Assembly: GCA_031446085.1 (NCBI GenBank)
Contig: CP132901.1
Location: 1-64,000, forward strand
DNA from: Arsenophonus sp.
Lineage (GTDB): Bacteria > Pseudomonadota > Gammaproteobacteria > Enterobacterales > Enterobacteriaceae
DNA: 64,000 bases
Reading direction: 5' to 3'
In this document: piece after piece, positions 36,170-42,231 of the stretch
Numbering within the stretch: the first letter of the stretch is position 1
Layout: the number at the start of each line of letters is the position of its first letter
The notes under the pieces: model-generated
Databases searched by the model: none
Told to the model about the DNA's origin: nothing
The model's input: only the letters and a program-made list of their open reading frames with translations
Position numbers and translations under genes: made by a program

Positions 36170-37513
36170 ATGTTTAAAAAAGAATTAAAAATAGTTTTTA
36201 TATTAGCATTTGTTTTATTATTTCGCGTTTTTGGTATTTCTATAATATTTCCAATATTTACTAATTATTTATTAACTTTAAAAACAGTTAATAAAATATT
36301 AATTTCTTTAACAATTGGTATTTATGGATTTAGTCAATCATTTTTTCAAATTCCATTGGGGATATTATCAGATTTTTTTGGTCGTAAAAAAGTAATTATT
36401 TTTGGTTTATGTATTTTTATTTTAGGATGTTTAGTTGTTGTCATAGAAAAATCTATTTATGGAATTATGATTGGTCGTTTTTTACAAGGATCAGGTGCAA
36501 TTTCTTCTGTTATATTAGCTTTAGCATCAGATTCTATCTCTGAAAAAAATAGAACTATTTTGATGGCCTTAATAGGTATTATTTTTGGAATTAGTTTTAG
36601 TATAGGAATTGCAATGAGTCCAATTATATATGATTTATTTGGATTAAATAATGTACTTTTTTTGATTTCATTTTTTTCTTTTTTGTCAATATTAATGATT
36701 TTTTATTACATTCCTAAAGATAATCCTATTAATATGAATTTTAGTTTTTACATTGTTAAAAATGTAATTAAAAAAATTTTGATCAATAAAAATATTTTAA
36801 AACTAAATTGTAGTATATTTTTATTACATATGTTATTGATGTCAAATTTTATTATTTTATTTCCGATTATAAAAAAATTTGGAATTTCATCTATACAACA
36901 GACAAAAATTTATTTTTTTGTTTTATTTTTTTCTTTAATTATATCTTTTATATTATTGTATCAATTTAAACCTTCTAAAAAAATTTTACAAAATTCTATA
37001 ATACTTTTATTTATTTCAATATTATTTTTTTTATTTTATAAACAGCATATTTATTTTTTTTTATTTGGATTACAGATTTTTTTTATAGGTTTTAATATAA
37101 TTGAATCTATTTTACCAGCTATATTAGTAAGAATAGCATCTTTTCCTTATAAAGGAACTACAATGAGTTTATTTTTAACTAGTCAATTTTTTGGTCTTGG
37201 TTTTGGTGGAATAATATTTGGATATCTTTATTCTATTGTGGATAATCTTCTATTATTATTAATAATAGAATTAATTATTCTTATTTTATGGTTTTTGATT
37301 GTTTTTCATTTAGATGATGGTTTATATTTAACTAATTTTAATTACTTAATGAAAAATAAAAATATAAATATTGATATTTTAATCAAGGATTTAATGAATA
37401 TTAAAGGAATAAAAGAAGTTTTTTTATCAAAAAATAAAGACGTTATTTACATTAAAGTAAATAACTTAATATTAAGTAAAAATAAAGTAATTAATTTTAT
37501 AGATAAATATTAA
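36170..37513 (+). CDS. yajR: Major facilitator superfamily transporter YajR
   Basis: Twelve-helix inner-membrane transporter of unknown substrate, 447 residues (E. coli about 455). MFS motif A is IPLGILSDFFGRKKVIIFG between helices 2 and 3. After the last helix comes a C-terminal cytoplasmic domain of about 70 residues (ILIKDLMNIKGIKEVFLSKN...VIYIKVNN), the ferredoxin-like domain peculiar to YajR. Position next to cyoE and before thiI agrees with E. coli once yajL, panE and yajQ are removed. It is odd that a transporter of unknown function persists in so reduced a genome. Confidence 0.88.
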   Translation: MFKKELKIVFILAFVLLFRVFGISIIFPIFTNYLLTLKTVNKILISLTIGIYGFSQSFFQIPLGILSDFFGRKKVIIFGLCIFILGCLVVVIEKSIYGIMIGRFLQGSGAISSVILALASDSISEKNRTILMALIGIIFGISFSIGIAMSPIIYDLFGLNNVLFLISFFSFLSILMIFYYIPKDNPINMNFSFYIVKNVIKKILINKNILKLNCSIFLLHMLLMSNFIILFPIIKKFGISSIQQTKIYFFVLFFSLIISFILLYQFKPSKKILQNSIILLFISILFFLFYKQHIYFFLFGLQIFFIGFNIIESILPAILVRIASFPYKGTTMSLFLTSQFFGLGFGGIIFGYLYSIVDNLLLLLIIELIILILWFLIVFHLDDGLYLTNFNYLMKNKNINIDILIKDLMNIKGIKEVFLSKNKDVIYIKVNNLILSKNKVINFIDKY

Positions 37514-37522
37514 TTACTTTAT

Positions 37523-37810
37523 TTATTTTTTTAAAATCTTAATTTTTTTGAAGCCTTTTTCTATCAAAAAGAAGGCTTGTAATCGACTCATAATTCCTTT
37601 TTCACAATATAATAAATAACTTTTTTCTTTTGATAATTGATGATATTCTGATTGAATTTTATAAAATGGCATTAATTTTATTTTTGTTTTTTTCAAGATA
37701 AGTGGATTTTTTTTTTGATCATACGTAGATCGTACATCTAAAATTGTGTCTTCTTTAGAATTTTTTTGAACAATTTTTAAAGAAAAAATATTTTTTATAT
37801 TTTTTTTCAT
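37523..37810 (-). CDS. thiI: Stand-alone rhodanese domain of ThiI (thiazole-forming part only)
   Basis: 95 residues that match only the last quarter of E. coli ThiI. DTILDVRSTYDQ, KLMPFYKIQSEY, YLLYCEKGIMSRLQAF and FLIEKGFKKIKIL align in order with the C-terminal rhodanese domain, including the persulfide-carrying Cys (Cys69; E. coli Cys456). The THUMP and PP-loop domains needed for 4-thiouridine in tRNA are absent: only about 160 bases separate this ATG from ispA. In Salmonella the rhodanese domain alone is known to suffice for thiamin thiazole synthesis. The location, opposite to ispA-dxs, is that of E. coli thiI, with xseB lost. An unrelated GlpE/PspE-type rhodanese is less likely given the matched motifs and position. 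Confidence 0.88.
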   Translation of the reverse strand: MKKNIKNIFSLKIVQKNSKEDTILDVRSTYDQKKNPLILKKTKIKLMPFYKIQSEYHQLSKEKSYLLYCEKGIMSRLQAFFLIEKGFKKIKILKK

Positions 37811-37974
37811 ATAAAATATTTATCTATAATAATTAATAAAATTATATTATATATAGATTTGTTTTTCAATATTTTATGTCATAATAGATAAAGATTTACA
37901 ACAATGCATTTTTTTTATTAAAAATTCTAAAAAAACAAAATTACAAATATATTAATTTTTATTTAAAATAATTT

Positions 37975-38880
37975 ATGATTTCTTTTTATGATCAATTAAT
38001 TTGGGTTAAAAAACATGTTGATGATATATTATCATTACAATTTGAAAAAAAATATCCTAAAAAAACAAAACTTATTTCTGCTATAAAATATAGTTTATTA
38101 TTTGGTGGAAAACGTTTTCGACCATTTTTAGCATATGCGATTGGTTCAATATTAAATATTTCAGAAAAAGTTTTAGATGTACTTGCAATTTCAGTTGAAT
38201 GTATTCATACATATTCCTTAATTCATGATGATTTACCTGCAATGGATAATGATATTTTAAGAAGAGGGAAAAAGACTTGTCATGTTGTTTTTGGAGAAGC
38301 ACATGCTATTTTAGCAGGAGATGCATTACATAATCTTGCTTTTGAACTTTTATCTTCTACATACATGCCTGGAATTAATGATAAAATGAAATTACTCTTT
38401 ATAAGAGAATTATCTAGTGCTATAGGGATAAATGGAATGTGTCTTGGACAAGCATTAGATATAGAATTAGAAAATAATACAATTGATAAAAAAATGTTGA
38501 AATTTATTCATTTAAATAAAACTGGTGCATTAATTCGAGCAACAATAAGAATGACAGCATTTGCGGGTGGTTATTTAGGAAAAAAAATTTTACCTTTACT
38601 AGATAAATATGCTGATATTATTGGATTATTATTTCAAATTCATGATGATGTTTTAGATACTATAGGAGATATTAAAAAAATAGGAAAAACTACTAAAATT
38701 GATCAAAGAAATAAAAAAAACACTTATGTTTCATTATTAGGTTTAAAAAAAACTCAAAATATAATTTTTTTTTTACATAAAAAAGCATTATTTATTTTAA
38801 ATAAAATTGAAAAAAAATACGATATAAATGTTATGATATTAAAAGATTTAACTAATTTTATTATTCAAAGAGATCATTAA
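37975..38880 (+). CDS. ispA: Farnesyl diphosphate synthase IspA
   Basis: Condenses isopentenyl diphosphate with DMAPP/GPP to farnesyl diphosphate, precursor of undecaprenyl- and octaprenyl-diphosphates and of haem O. 301 residues (E. coli 299). First Asp-rich motif is [10 protein letters not shown] (about 84-93), second is [18 protein letters not shown] (about 44-50) binds IPP, and KTGALI is present. Upstream of dxs, as in E. coli, though xseB is missing. Confidence 0.96.
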
Positions 38881-38927: not shown

Positions 38928-40772
38928 ATGAATATTAAAAAAGATTGTTATCCAATACTTTCATTAATAAATAATCCTAAAGATTTGCGTCGTTTATCCA
39001 AAATTAAATTACCTCAATTATGTAATGAATTACGTTTTTTTTTGTTAAAAAGTGTTAGTAAATCTAGTGGACATTTTGCTTCAGGTTTAGGTGTAATTGA
39101 ATTAACAGTTGCTTTACATTATATTTATAATACTCCATTTGATAATATTATATGGGATGTTGGCCATCAAGCATATCCTCATAAGATTTTAACTGAAAGG
39201 AAAAAAAAAATTTACACTATAAGAAAAGATCATGGACTACATCCTTTTCCATGTCGCGAAGAAAGTATATATGATACGTTTAGTGTTGGACATTCTTCTA
39301 CTTCTATTAGTGCAGGTTTAGGTATGGCTGTAGCAGCAGAATATGAAAAAAAAAATAGAAAAACTATTTGCGTTATAGGAGATGGCGGAATAACATCAGG
39401 TATGGCTTATGAAGCAATGAATCATGCCGGGTATATTAATAAAGACATATTAGTTATCTTAAATGATAATCAAATGTCAATTTCAGAAAATGTTGGTTAT
39501 TTAAGTAAATACTTAAATAAATTGTTTTTTTCTTATTTTAATTTGAATTCAAAAAATAAAAAAACTAAATTTTTATTTAAAATACCTTTTATTAAAAGAT
39601 TCTTTGAAAAGGCATTAAGTTCAAATACTATATTTGAAGCATTAGGTTTTAATTATATTGGTATTATTGATGGTCATGATATTAAAAAATTATTAAAAAT
39701 TTTAAGTAAAATTAAAAAAATAAAAGGACCACATTTTTTACATTTAATTACAAAAAAAGGAAAAGGTTATAAACCTGCAGAAGAAGATCCGATTTCTTGG
39801 CATGCAGTACCTAAATTTAATTTAAAATCTTTTGTTTTTCCTAAAAAAACAAACAAAAAAACTTTTTCTGAATTTTTTGGAAAATGGTTATGTCAACAAG
39901 CTAGTCAAGATAAAAAATTAATTGTTATTACTCCAGCTATGCGAGAAGGTTCATGTTTAGTAAAATTTTCTGAATTATATCCAAGACAATTTTTTGATGT
40001 TGCTATTGCAGAACAACATGCTATTACGTTCGCTGCTGGTTTATCTATTGGTGGATATAATCCGATTATTTCAATTTATTCTTCTTTTTTACAAAGAGCT
40101 TATGATCAAGTAATACACGATATTGCAATTCAGAAAATTCCTGTTTTATTTGCAATTGATAGATCTGGCATAGTTGGTGCTGATGGACGTACACATCAAG
40201 GAGTATTCGATATTTCTTTTTTACGTTGTATACCAAATATAATTATTATGGTTCCTAGTGATGAAAATGAATTCAGACAAATGTTATATACAGGTTATTT
40301 TTATAAAAAATTTCCAGTATTTATACGATATCCTAAAAGAGAAATATTTGGTGTAAATTTAAAAAAAATATCTTCTATTCCAATAGGAAAAGCAAGAATA
40401 TTACGTATAGGACAAAAGATCTCTATATTAAATTTTGGACCATTAGTCTTTGAAGCTATAAAAGCTGCTAAAATATTAAATGCAACTGTAATAGATATGC
40501 GTTTTGTAAAACCTTTAGATCAAAAAATTATATTAGAAACTGTCAAAAAACACGAATTTTTAGTAACTTTAGAAGAAAATTCTATTTATGGTGGAGCTGG
40601 AAGTGCTGTTAATGAATTTTTAATGAAAAAAAAATGTCTTATTCCTATTTTAAATCTTGGTATACCGGATTATTATATTGATCATGGTAATCAAAATAAA
40701 ATTTTATCTAAATTAGGATTAGATTCACAAGGTATTTTGAATTCAATAAAAGAATATGTTAATTCTATTTAA
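38928..40772 (+). CDS. dxs: 1-deoxy-D-xylulose-5-phosphate synthase
   Basis: Thiamin-diphosphate enzyme joining pyruvate and glyceraldehyde-3-phosphate to DXP, used for isoprenoids (MEP pathway), thiamin thiazole and pyridoxal phosphate. 614 residues (E. coli 620). ThDP motif [18 protein letters not shown]...[22 protein letters not shown] and [10 protein letters not shown] near the N-terminus; catalytic Glu in [31 protein letters not shown]. The end overlaps convergent pgpA in a TTAA shared by both stops. Its product links ispA with the thiI rhodanese and thiL genes nearby. Confidence 0.97.
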
Positions 40773-41257
40773 AATATTTTAATCATATGTATTAAATTTA
40801 TTAATATGATTGTTATAGACGATGCTACAATATCATCTAACATAATTCCTAATCCTCCTTTTATATTTTTTTCTATCCATTTTATAGGATGTGGTTTGAA
40901 AATATCTAATATTCTGAAAATAATAATACTAGTTATTATTATTTTATAGTTAATAAAGTTAGAAGTCATTATTAAAATTAACCACATTCCTACAAATTCA
41001 TCCCATATAATACATTTATCATCATGTTTTTTAGTTATTTGTACTGTTTTATTACATATGAATATTCCTATTAAAAAAGTTATAATAATAAAAATCCAGT
41101 AGTAATTTTTAGGTAAAACTATTGTAATTATAGACCATATAAAAATTGATAAAATAGTACCAATAGTTCCTGGAAAGATAAATATTTTTCCAAATCCAAA
41201 TCCAGTTGCTAAAAAATAATAAAAATAAGAAATATTTAATTTATTTTTTTTGTTCAT
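40769..41257 (-). CDS. pgpA: Phosphatidylglycerophosphatase A
   Basis: Dephosphorylates phosphatidylglycerophosphate to phosphatidylglycerol in the inner membrane. 162 residues (E. coli 172). [33 protein letters not shown] and [15 protein letters not shown] are the family blocks, with the acidic metal-binding residues in WDEF and LDD. Three to four hydrophobic segments. The ATG overlaps the thiL stop by 4 bases (ATGA), as expected for translational coupling. With glpT it concerns glycerophospholipid supply. Confidence 0.93.
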
Positions 41258-42231
41258 TGATTAAAATGTTCAAATTTATTAATATTTAGTAATAATTGTT
41301 TTTTTTTATAAAAAAATTTTATTGTTCTAAAATTTTTATTTATTTTCCCGATACAAAAAGCTTTTAAGTTATTTTTTTTTAATAAAATTTCCAATTTTTT
41401 TTGTTTTTTTTTAGGTACAGTAAAACAAAGTTCATAATCTTCTCCTCCAGATACTGCTAGTTCAAAAATATTTTTTTTAGATATTTGTTTTTTAATAGAT
41501 TTTGATAATGGTATTAAATCTAATTGAATTTCAGCACCACAATTGCTTTTATTTAAAATATGACTTAAATCAGAATATAGTCCATCTGATATATCAATAT
41601 TTGATGAAGCAATAGATCTAATAATGATACCGTGTAAGATTTTTGGATCAGGTTTTAAATGTTTCTTAATAAAAAAATTATAATCATGTTTGTTTTTAAT
41701 ATATATTTTTTTATCAAGTAGTAATAATCCTACTGCACTATCTCCTAATGGTCCTGTTATATAGATTTTATCATTATGCATAGCACCTGATCTCGTTAGA
41801 GCTTTTCCATATGGAACAAATCCATATGCTGTATATGTTAGGCTCATAGGACCTTTTGTTGTATCTCCTCCAATTAGTTGAATTTTGTAAAAGTTTAATA
41901 GTTTAAATAAAGTGTTACTAAATTTTTTTAACCATATATGATTAATTTTAGGTAATGTAATTGCTAATGATATCCAAGTTGGGTGTGCACCCATTGCAGC
42001 TAAATCACTAAGATTTACACATAAAGATTTATGCGCTAAATATTCTGGTTTTATATTTGAAAAGAAATGAGTATTCTCTACTAGAGAATCTGTTGTTACT
42101 ACTAATTGTTGTTTTTTTGGTATGGTTAATACAGCACCATCATCTCCTATTCCGATATTTGCTGTATATCTAATATTTTTTTTATTTTTTTTATTAAAAA
42201 AATATTTTATTACGTCAAATTCAGTATACAT
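41254..42231 (-). CDS. thiL: Thiamine-monophosphate kinase
   Basis: Phosphorylates thiamin monophosphate to thiamin diphosphate, the active cofactor used by Dxs and AceE. 325 residues, the same as E. coli. PurM/ThiL superfamily fold with GIGDDGAVLTIP near residue 30, VVTTDSLVENTHF, LAAMGAHPTWISLA, GGDTTKGPMSLTYTAYG, the GPLGDSAVGLLLL loop, and NIDISDGLYSDLSHI. Between nusB and pgpA, as in E. coli. Retention beside a ThiI rhodanese gene suggests a thiamin pathway rather than salvage only. Confidence 0.96.
   Translation of the reverse strand: MYTEFDVIKYFFNKKNKKNIRYTANIGIGDDGAVLTIPKKQQLVVTTDSLVENTHFFSNIKPEYLAHKSLCVNLSDLAAMGAHPTWISLAITLPKINHIWLKKFSNTLFKLLNFYKIQLIGGDTTKGPMSLTYTAYGFVPYGKALTRSGAMHNDKIYITGPLGDSAVGLLLLDKKIYIKNKHDYNFFIKKHLKPDPKILHGIIIRSIASSNIDISDGLYSDLSHILNKSNCGAEIQLDLIPLSKSIKKQISKKNIFELAVSGGEDYELCFTVPKKKQKKLEILLKKNNLKAFCIGKINKNFRTIKFFYKKKQLLLNINKFEHFNQ

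Follow-up and report, generated by a model that had tools for sequence, protein, structure and literature searches.

What does a ThiI protein reduced to its last 95 residues still do, and for whose benefit has it been kept? The question is raised by a 64-kb stretch of DNA (the window; 22.4% G+C) from a genome assembled as one contig of 599,419 bp, which was identified as belonging to an Arsenophonus symbiont found in the louse fly Ornithoica turdi. Both the truncation and its reading in terms of thiazole synthesis are already in print for this genome. A 2023 report (PMC10654098), which gives 23.6% G+C for the whole genome, described thiI of the O. turdi symbiont as only 288 bp long, corresponding to the rhodanese domain, and as probably sufficient for the thiamine pathway. 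The original prediction, made from the window, held that the gene had been pruned to its vitamin B1 function under selection for thiamin supply to a host. As a whole, this reading is partly supported by the analysis presented here.

Identity of the 95-aa thiI product and its locus

The thiI ORF starts with ATG, with just three in-frame codons open 5′ of it, and runs for 95 codons to a stop (Table 1). The encoded protein scored 100.8 bits (E value, 3.6e-29) against the NCBIfam model TIGR04271 (ThiI_C_thiazole; curated cut-off, 70 bits), aligning over model positions 10 to 100 of 101, and 27.2 bits against Pfam Rhodanese PF00581 (cut-off, 22.2). Judged from these sequence comparisons, the TIGR04271 match cannot be chance. 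The two matches confirmed the ORF as a genuine rhodanese-only ThiI, as originally predicted. The sulfur-carrying cysteine, expected to be intact, is indeed present. Cys69 lies within the motif LLYCEKGIMS, aligns with the persulfide cysteine of ThiI, and occupies a column that is invariant in two alignments, one of 13 family- and order-level relatives and the other of 16 ThiI domains from named genomes. We take it to be the equivalent of E. coli ThiI Cys456. The AlphaFold model of the protein, built from a 17-sequence alignment (mean pLDDT, 88.0), has an alpha/beta rhodanese-like fold, in which the Cys69 loop is placed between strand 64-68 and helix 73-84. Foldseek matched this model to solved rhodanese-related proteins with TM-scores (query) of about 0.6 to 0.7. 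The model is of low confidence at residues 1 to 6, which are probably disordered.

The part of ThiI devoted to tRNA 4-thiouridine synthesis is missing. No THUMP domain was found within the 95-aa ORF, which is filled by the rhodanese domain, and the 164 bases that separate the ORF from ispA leave no space for the missing ∼390 residues. Consistently with the predicted lack of room for these domains, searches of the whole genome for the ThiI synthetase (PP-loop) domain PF02568 returned no match at E≤0.001 nor at E≤10; the control search gave a match at E≤0.001 in 12 of 14 genomes. Neither a second full thiI nor a detached N-terminal part elsewhere in the genome, for which a check had been proposed, came to light in these searches.

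The order yajR-thiI-ispA-dxs also occurs in relatives with full-length ThiI, some of which lack thiG (G062, G078, and G254). The nearness of dxs, initially offered as evidence of pruning, therefore carries no weight, and we rejected it as a sign of pruning because the locus is inherited.

Table 1. Position and supporting evidence of the features discussed (window coordinates unless stated otherwise)
Feature	Coordinates	Strand	Evidence
yajR-like MFS transporter, conserved neighbor in the native thiI locus	36170..37513	+	
thiI remnant, stand-alone ThiI C-terminal rhodanese domain (95 aa, 288 bp)	37523..37810	-	ORF, TIGR04271, PF00581, fold model
Cys69 codon, persulfide-carrying Cys of the rhodanese loop	37604..37606	-	Sequence and invariant alignment column
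Gap between thiI remnant and ispA (164 bases), too small for THUMP/PP-loop domains	37811..37974	.	ORF map; genome without PF02568
ispA, conserved divergent neighbor of thiI	37975..38880	+	Protein sequence and synteny; homologues adjoin thiI in relatives
dxs (DXP synthase), DXP for thiazole and isoprenoid synthesis	38928..40772	+	TIGR00204, 860.3 bits
thiL (thiamin-phosphate kinase)	41254..42231	-	TIGR01379, 323.2 bits
thiE, split over two frames	L107:9824-10473 (genome, about 434823-435472)	-	Halves join at ten consecutive A

Thiamin genes of the same genome

The genome carries thiC, thiF, thiS, thiG, thiH, thiD, thiL, dxs, and iscS, so that the partner genes of TIGR04271 (thiS, thiF, thiG, and iscS) are all found. 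ThiS ends in the required GG, and thiD lies at position 108,899 of the genome (TIGR00097; 259.9 bits). The sulfur donor IscS is intact (TIGR02006; 705.6 bits), and its gene is adjoined by iscU, iscA, hscB, and fdx, these four being named from their sequences. Thus, the expectation of further thi genes in the genome held for thiS, thiF, thiG, thiC, and thiD, but it did not hold for thiE, which is frame-broken. Both thiE halves match thiamin phosphate synthase. Runs of at least ten A number 22 in 53 kb of window coding DNA and are common inside intact genes, and the frame break could possibly be rescued by slippage, come from an error in the assembly, or mark the onset of decay. With thiE split in the assembly, the thiamin pathway is not demonstrably complete; barring slippage or an assembly error as the cause of the split, it may be broken.

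Two further observations concern the thi region. ThiG (L107:8094-8855, minus strand), like that of G072, aligns to its family model no further than position 229 of 247, and its C-terminal end seems to have diverged. Rfam searches of the thi region and of the window yielded no hit for a TPP riboswitch. Riboswitch-controlled thiC was rejected because no TPP match reached the Rfam threshold near this gene, and riboswitch control of the thi operon may have been lost.

ThiI form and thiG in reduced and free-living genomes

The family scan comprised 392 genomes with a rhodanese alignment, 45 mostly small genomes inspected in detail, and 80 searched for PF02568 and ThiG. Rhodanese-only ThiI was found in 17 reduced genomes of nine genera, namely the window genome (G000) and G017, G028, G060, G061, G198, G144, G247, G377, G318, G124, G234, G307, G133, G240, G312, and G086. 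Intact thiG accompanies it in 16 of the 17, the sole exception being G318, where thiG survives as a broken remnant. Full-length ThiI was found in 20 genomes of 12 genera, only three of which have thiG (G139, G243, and G407). Another 35 genomes gave no ThiI match, and thiG is present in three of these (G012, G072, and G118; loci L181, L182, and L183). The distribution of short and full-length ThiI by thiG departs from independence (Fisher test, p=1.3e-6 with genomes as units and 2.2e-4 with genera), with part of the kinship among genomes being ignored in both values. In a tree pairing test, all differing pairs go in the expected direction, the independent pairs being too few for significance.

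Homology to full ThiI starts at about residues 395 to 424 of the 496-residue query in the short copies examined, with matches in G377 and G247 that are shorter than in the others. Every examined copy except that of G060 sits in the native thiI locus, beside ispA or dxs. The dN/dS ratios of the short forms ranged from 0.16 to 0.48 in 12 congeneric pairs (dS was saturated in one further pair); the window copy is outside these pairs, as the set contains no second genome of its genus. Such values indicate that the short forms are under purifying selection. Genome G028 (L109, G028:C5:539000-549000) shows ThiI in mid-decay: the N-terminal and synthetase regions are recognizable and contain five stops, and the rhodanese domain is an open 92-codon frame, so that the N-terminal part is going and the rhodanese domain is kept. 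In G060 (L172:3287-9246; contig C4, 73 kb), the rhodanese-only thiI directly follows thiC-E-F-S-G-H as the last gene of the cluster, possibly a transferred vitamin cluster.

Five changes are required to place the short form on the dxs protein tree, three of them forced by well-supported branches, and the window genome groups with two genomes that have full-length ThiI (G407 and G204). A single truncation in a common ancestor was rejected, since the AU test on dxs does not accept one clade of all short forms (p 1e-59). The tree thus suggests some five independent truncations, of which three or more lie on well-supported branches. A test of G000 with the G017/G086/g125/g134 cluster gave a p value of 0.033 for a group that was picked after inspection of the tree, and we are unsure how the most AT-rich lineages group at the finer level.

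Stand-alone ThiI rhodanese ORFs also emerged from a scan of named genomes, which took in no other insect symbionts. They belong to marine bacteria of the SAR92 clade, i.e., HTCC2207, MOLA455, and Porticoccaceae bins (loci L033, L034, L035, L036, L037, L038, L040, L041, and L043). Full ThiI was not found with PF02568 in these genomes, several of which are bins and may be incomplete; the only hits were weak ones (∼35 bits at most), to PP-loop proteins other than ThiI. Rhodanese-only reduction would hence not be specific to host-associated life.

Function of the short gene and comparison with known systems

We consider it very probable that thiI lost the THUMP and PP-loop domains and kept the rhodanese domain for thiazole sulfur transfer in a cell that still makes thiamin. 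IscS would load a persulfide onto Cys69, and the rhodanese domain would hand the sulfur to ThiF-activated, adenylated ThiS, giving ThiS thiocarboxylate. From the latter, DXP, and the ThiH product, ThiG would form thiazole phosphate. The s4U8 modification of tRNA would be lost, and the rhodanese domain would be kept by selection as long as the cell makes thiamin. The presence of the thiazole genes and IscS, the absence of PF02568, and the tracking of thiG by the short form all favor the predicted pruning to the vitamin B1 function. Counting against this reading are the split thiE, the lack of TusA in this genome, and the three reduced genomes (G012, G072, and G118) that have thiG but no ThiI rhodanese, from which it follows that the domain is not indispensable everywhere.

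The ORF might instead be a fading pseudogene, the last piece of a ThiI being lost, open by accident and without function. A frame-broken gene of the same pathway would fit this explanation, as would the marginal nature of some short copies (48 to 64 aa in G377; no clear start codon in G133) and the broken remnant of G279, a genome whose genus includes two of the short-form ones. However, the 95-aa ORF encodes the full domain with all conserved residues, and nearly the same truncation boundary recurs across nine genera. Together with the purifying selection on the short forms and the co-retention of thiG in 16 of 17 genomes, this makes decay a very improbable account. Rhodaneses are versatile sulfur carriers, and the domain could serve another sulfur relay instead of thiazole synthesis, e.g., by feeding MnmA (tRNA s2U34) as a substitute for the TusA relay. 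The window genome yielded no TusA, although IscS is intact, which leaves room for such a role. Yet TusA is present in 6 of the 17 short-form genomes and is missing also among full-length ones, the form of ThiI is predicted by thiG and not by TusA, and the rhodanese gene of G060 stands at the end of a thi cluster. TusA replacement, showing no association with the short form, was discarded as the driver, and we regard a relay other than that to thiazole as highly unlikely. If kept, an s2U34 sulfur relay without TusA would have to be direct.

Retention of the domain as a means of provisioning the blood-feeding host with thiamin is compatible with the proposed mechanism, and Wigglesworthia, a tsetse symbiont reported to feed thiamine to its host, has the rhodanese-only form, as cited in PMC10654098. 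Nonetheless, the O. turdi strain is reported to have no thiamine transporter (PMC10654098), so that its own need for thiamin diphosphate, e.g., for DXS, is sufficient. Most sister louse-fly symbionts have lost the pathway, and thiamine is "obviously not crucial" in this host group according to the same authors. The same lone domain, with no full ThiI, occurs in free-living bacteria of the SAR92 clade, and host supply is accordingly not required as an explanation. The originally predicted selection for host provisioning is not sustained by the transporter and SAR92 evidence, and we hold it to be possible but doubtful.

Loss of the s4U8 half with retention of sulfur transfer to thiazole, our preferred reading, likely extends beyond this genome. 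Rhodanese pruning would be a general and repeated outcome of genome reduction, reached at least three to five times in insect symbionts and once more in free-living SAR92, that reflects dispensability of s4U8 and not host provisioning; stated as a rule, which is part of the same claim, genomes that keep thiazole synthesis while s4U8 is dispensable would lose the synthetase half at the same boundary. ThiI domain content would accordingly predict thiazole synthesis in reduced genomes. The recurrent domain-level rule, the case caught in the act, and the free-living examples are new here and may interest specialists. They correct annotation that discards a short thiI as non-functional, name organisms in which s4U8 loss can be checked by tRNA analysis, and, through the free-living cases, argue against taking rhodanese-only ThiI as a sign of host feeding.

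The closest known case is that of the O. turdi symbiont itself (PMC10654098), which concerns the same genome, the same 288-bp gene, and the same reading; the gene is no different, whereas the main text of that report, unlike our analysis, contains neither the thiE frame break nor a family-wide pattern. Among the precedents cited there, Wigglesworthia glossinidia and the Pantoea symbiont of the brown marmorated stink bug are likewise obligate symbionts with a rhodanese-only ThiI, but they live in other hosts, and their taxonomy makes the truncations separate. HTCC2207 and MOLA455 of the SAR92 clade resemble the window genome in having one ThiI-type rhodanese, encoded by an open frame of ∼100 to 140 codons, and no full ThiI. 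They differ in being free-living and in that the rhodanese gene adjoins a glutamine synthetase-like gene (named from its sequence) instead of ispA, with the comparison made on thiI and its neighbor only. Full-length gammaproteobacterial ThiI, composed of THUMP, PP-loop, and rhodanese domains, has a homologous C-terminal domain and the same chromosomal neighbors, whereas the tRNA-binding and adenylating domains are missing from the window gene. Finally, thiazole synthesis in Salmonella enterica requires the rhodanese domain of ThiI and no other part of the protein (Martinez-Gomez 2011, cited through PMC10654098), but the lone domain was engineered in the laboratory. The window gene is the natural counterpart of that experiment, which separated the two jobs of ThiI.
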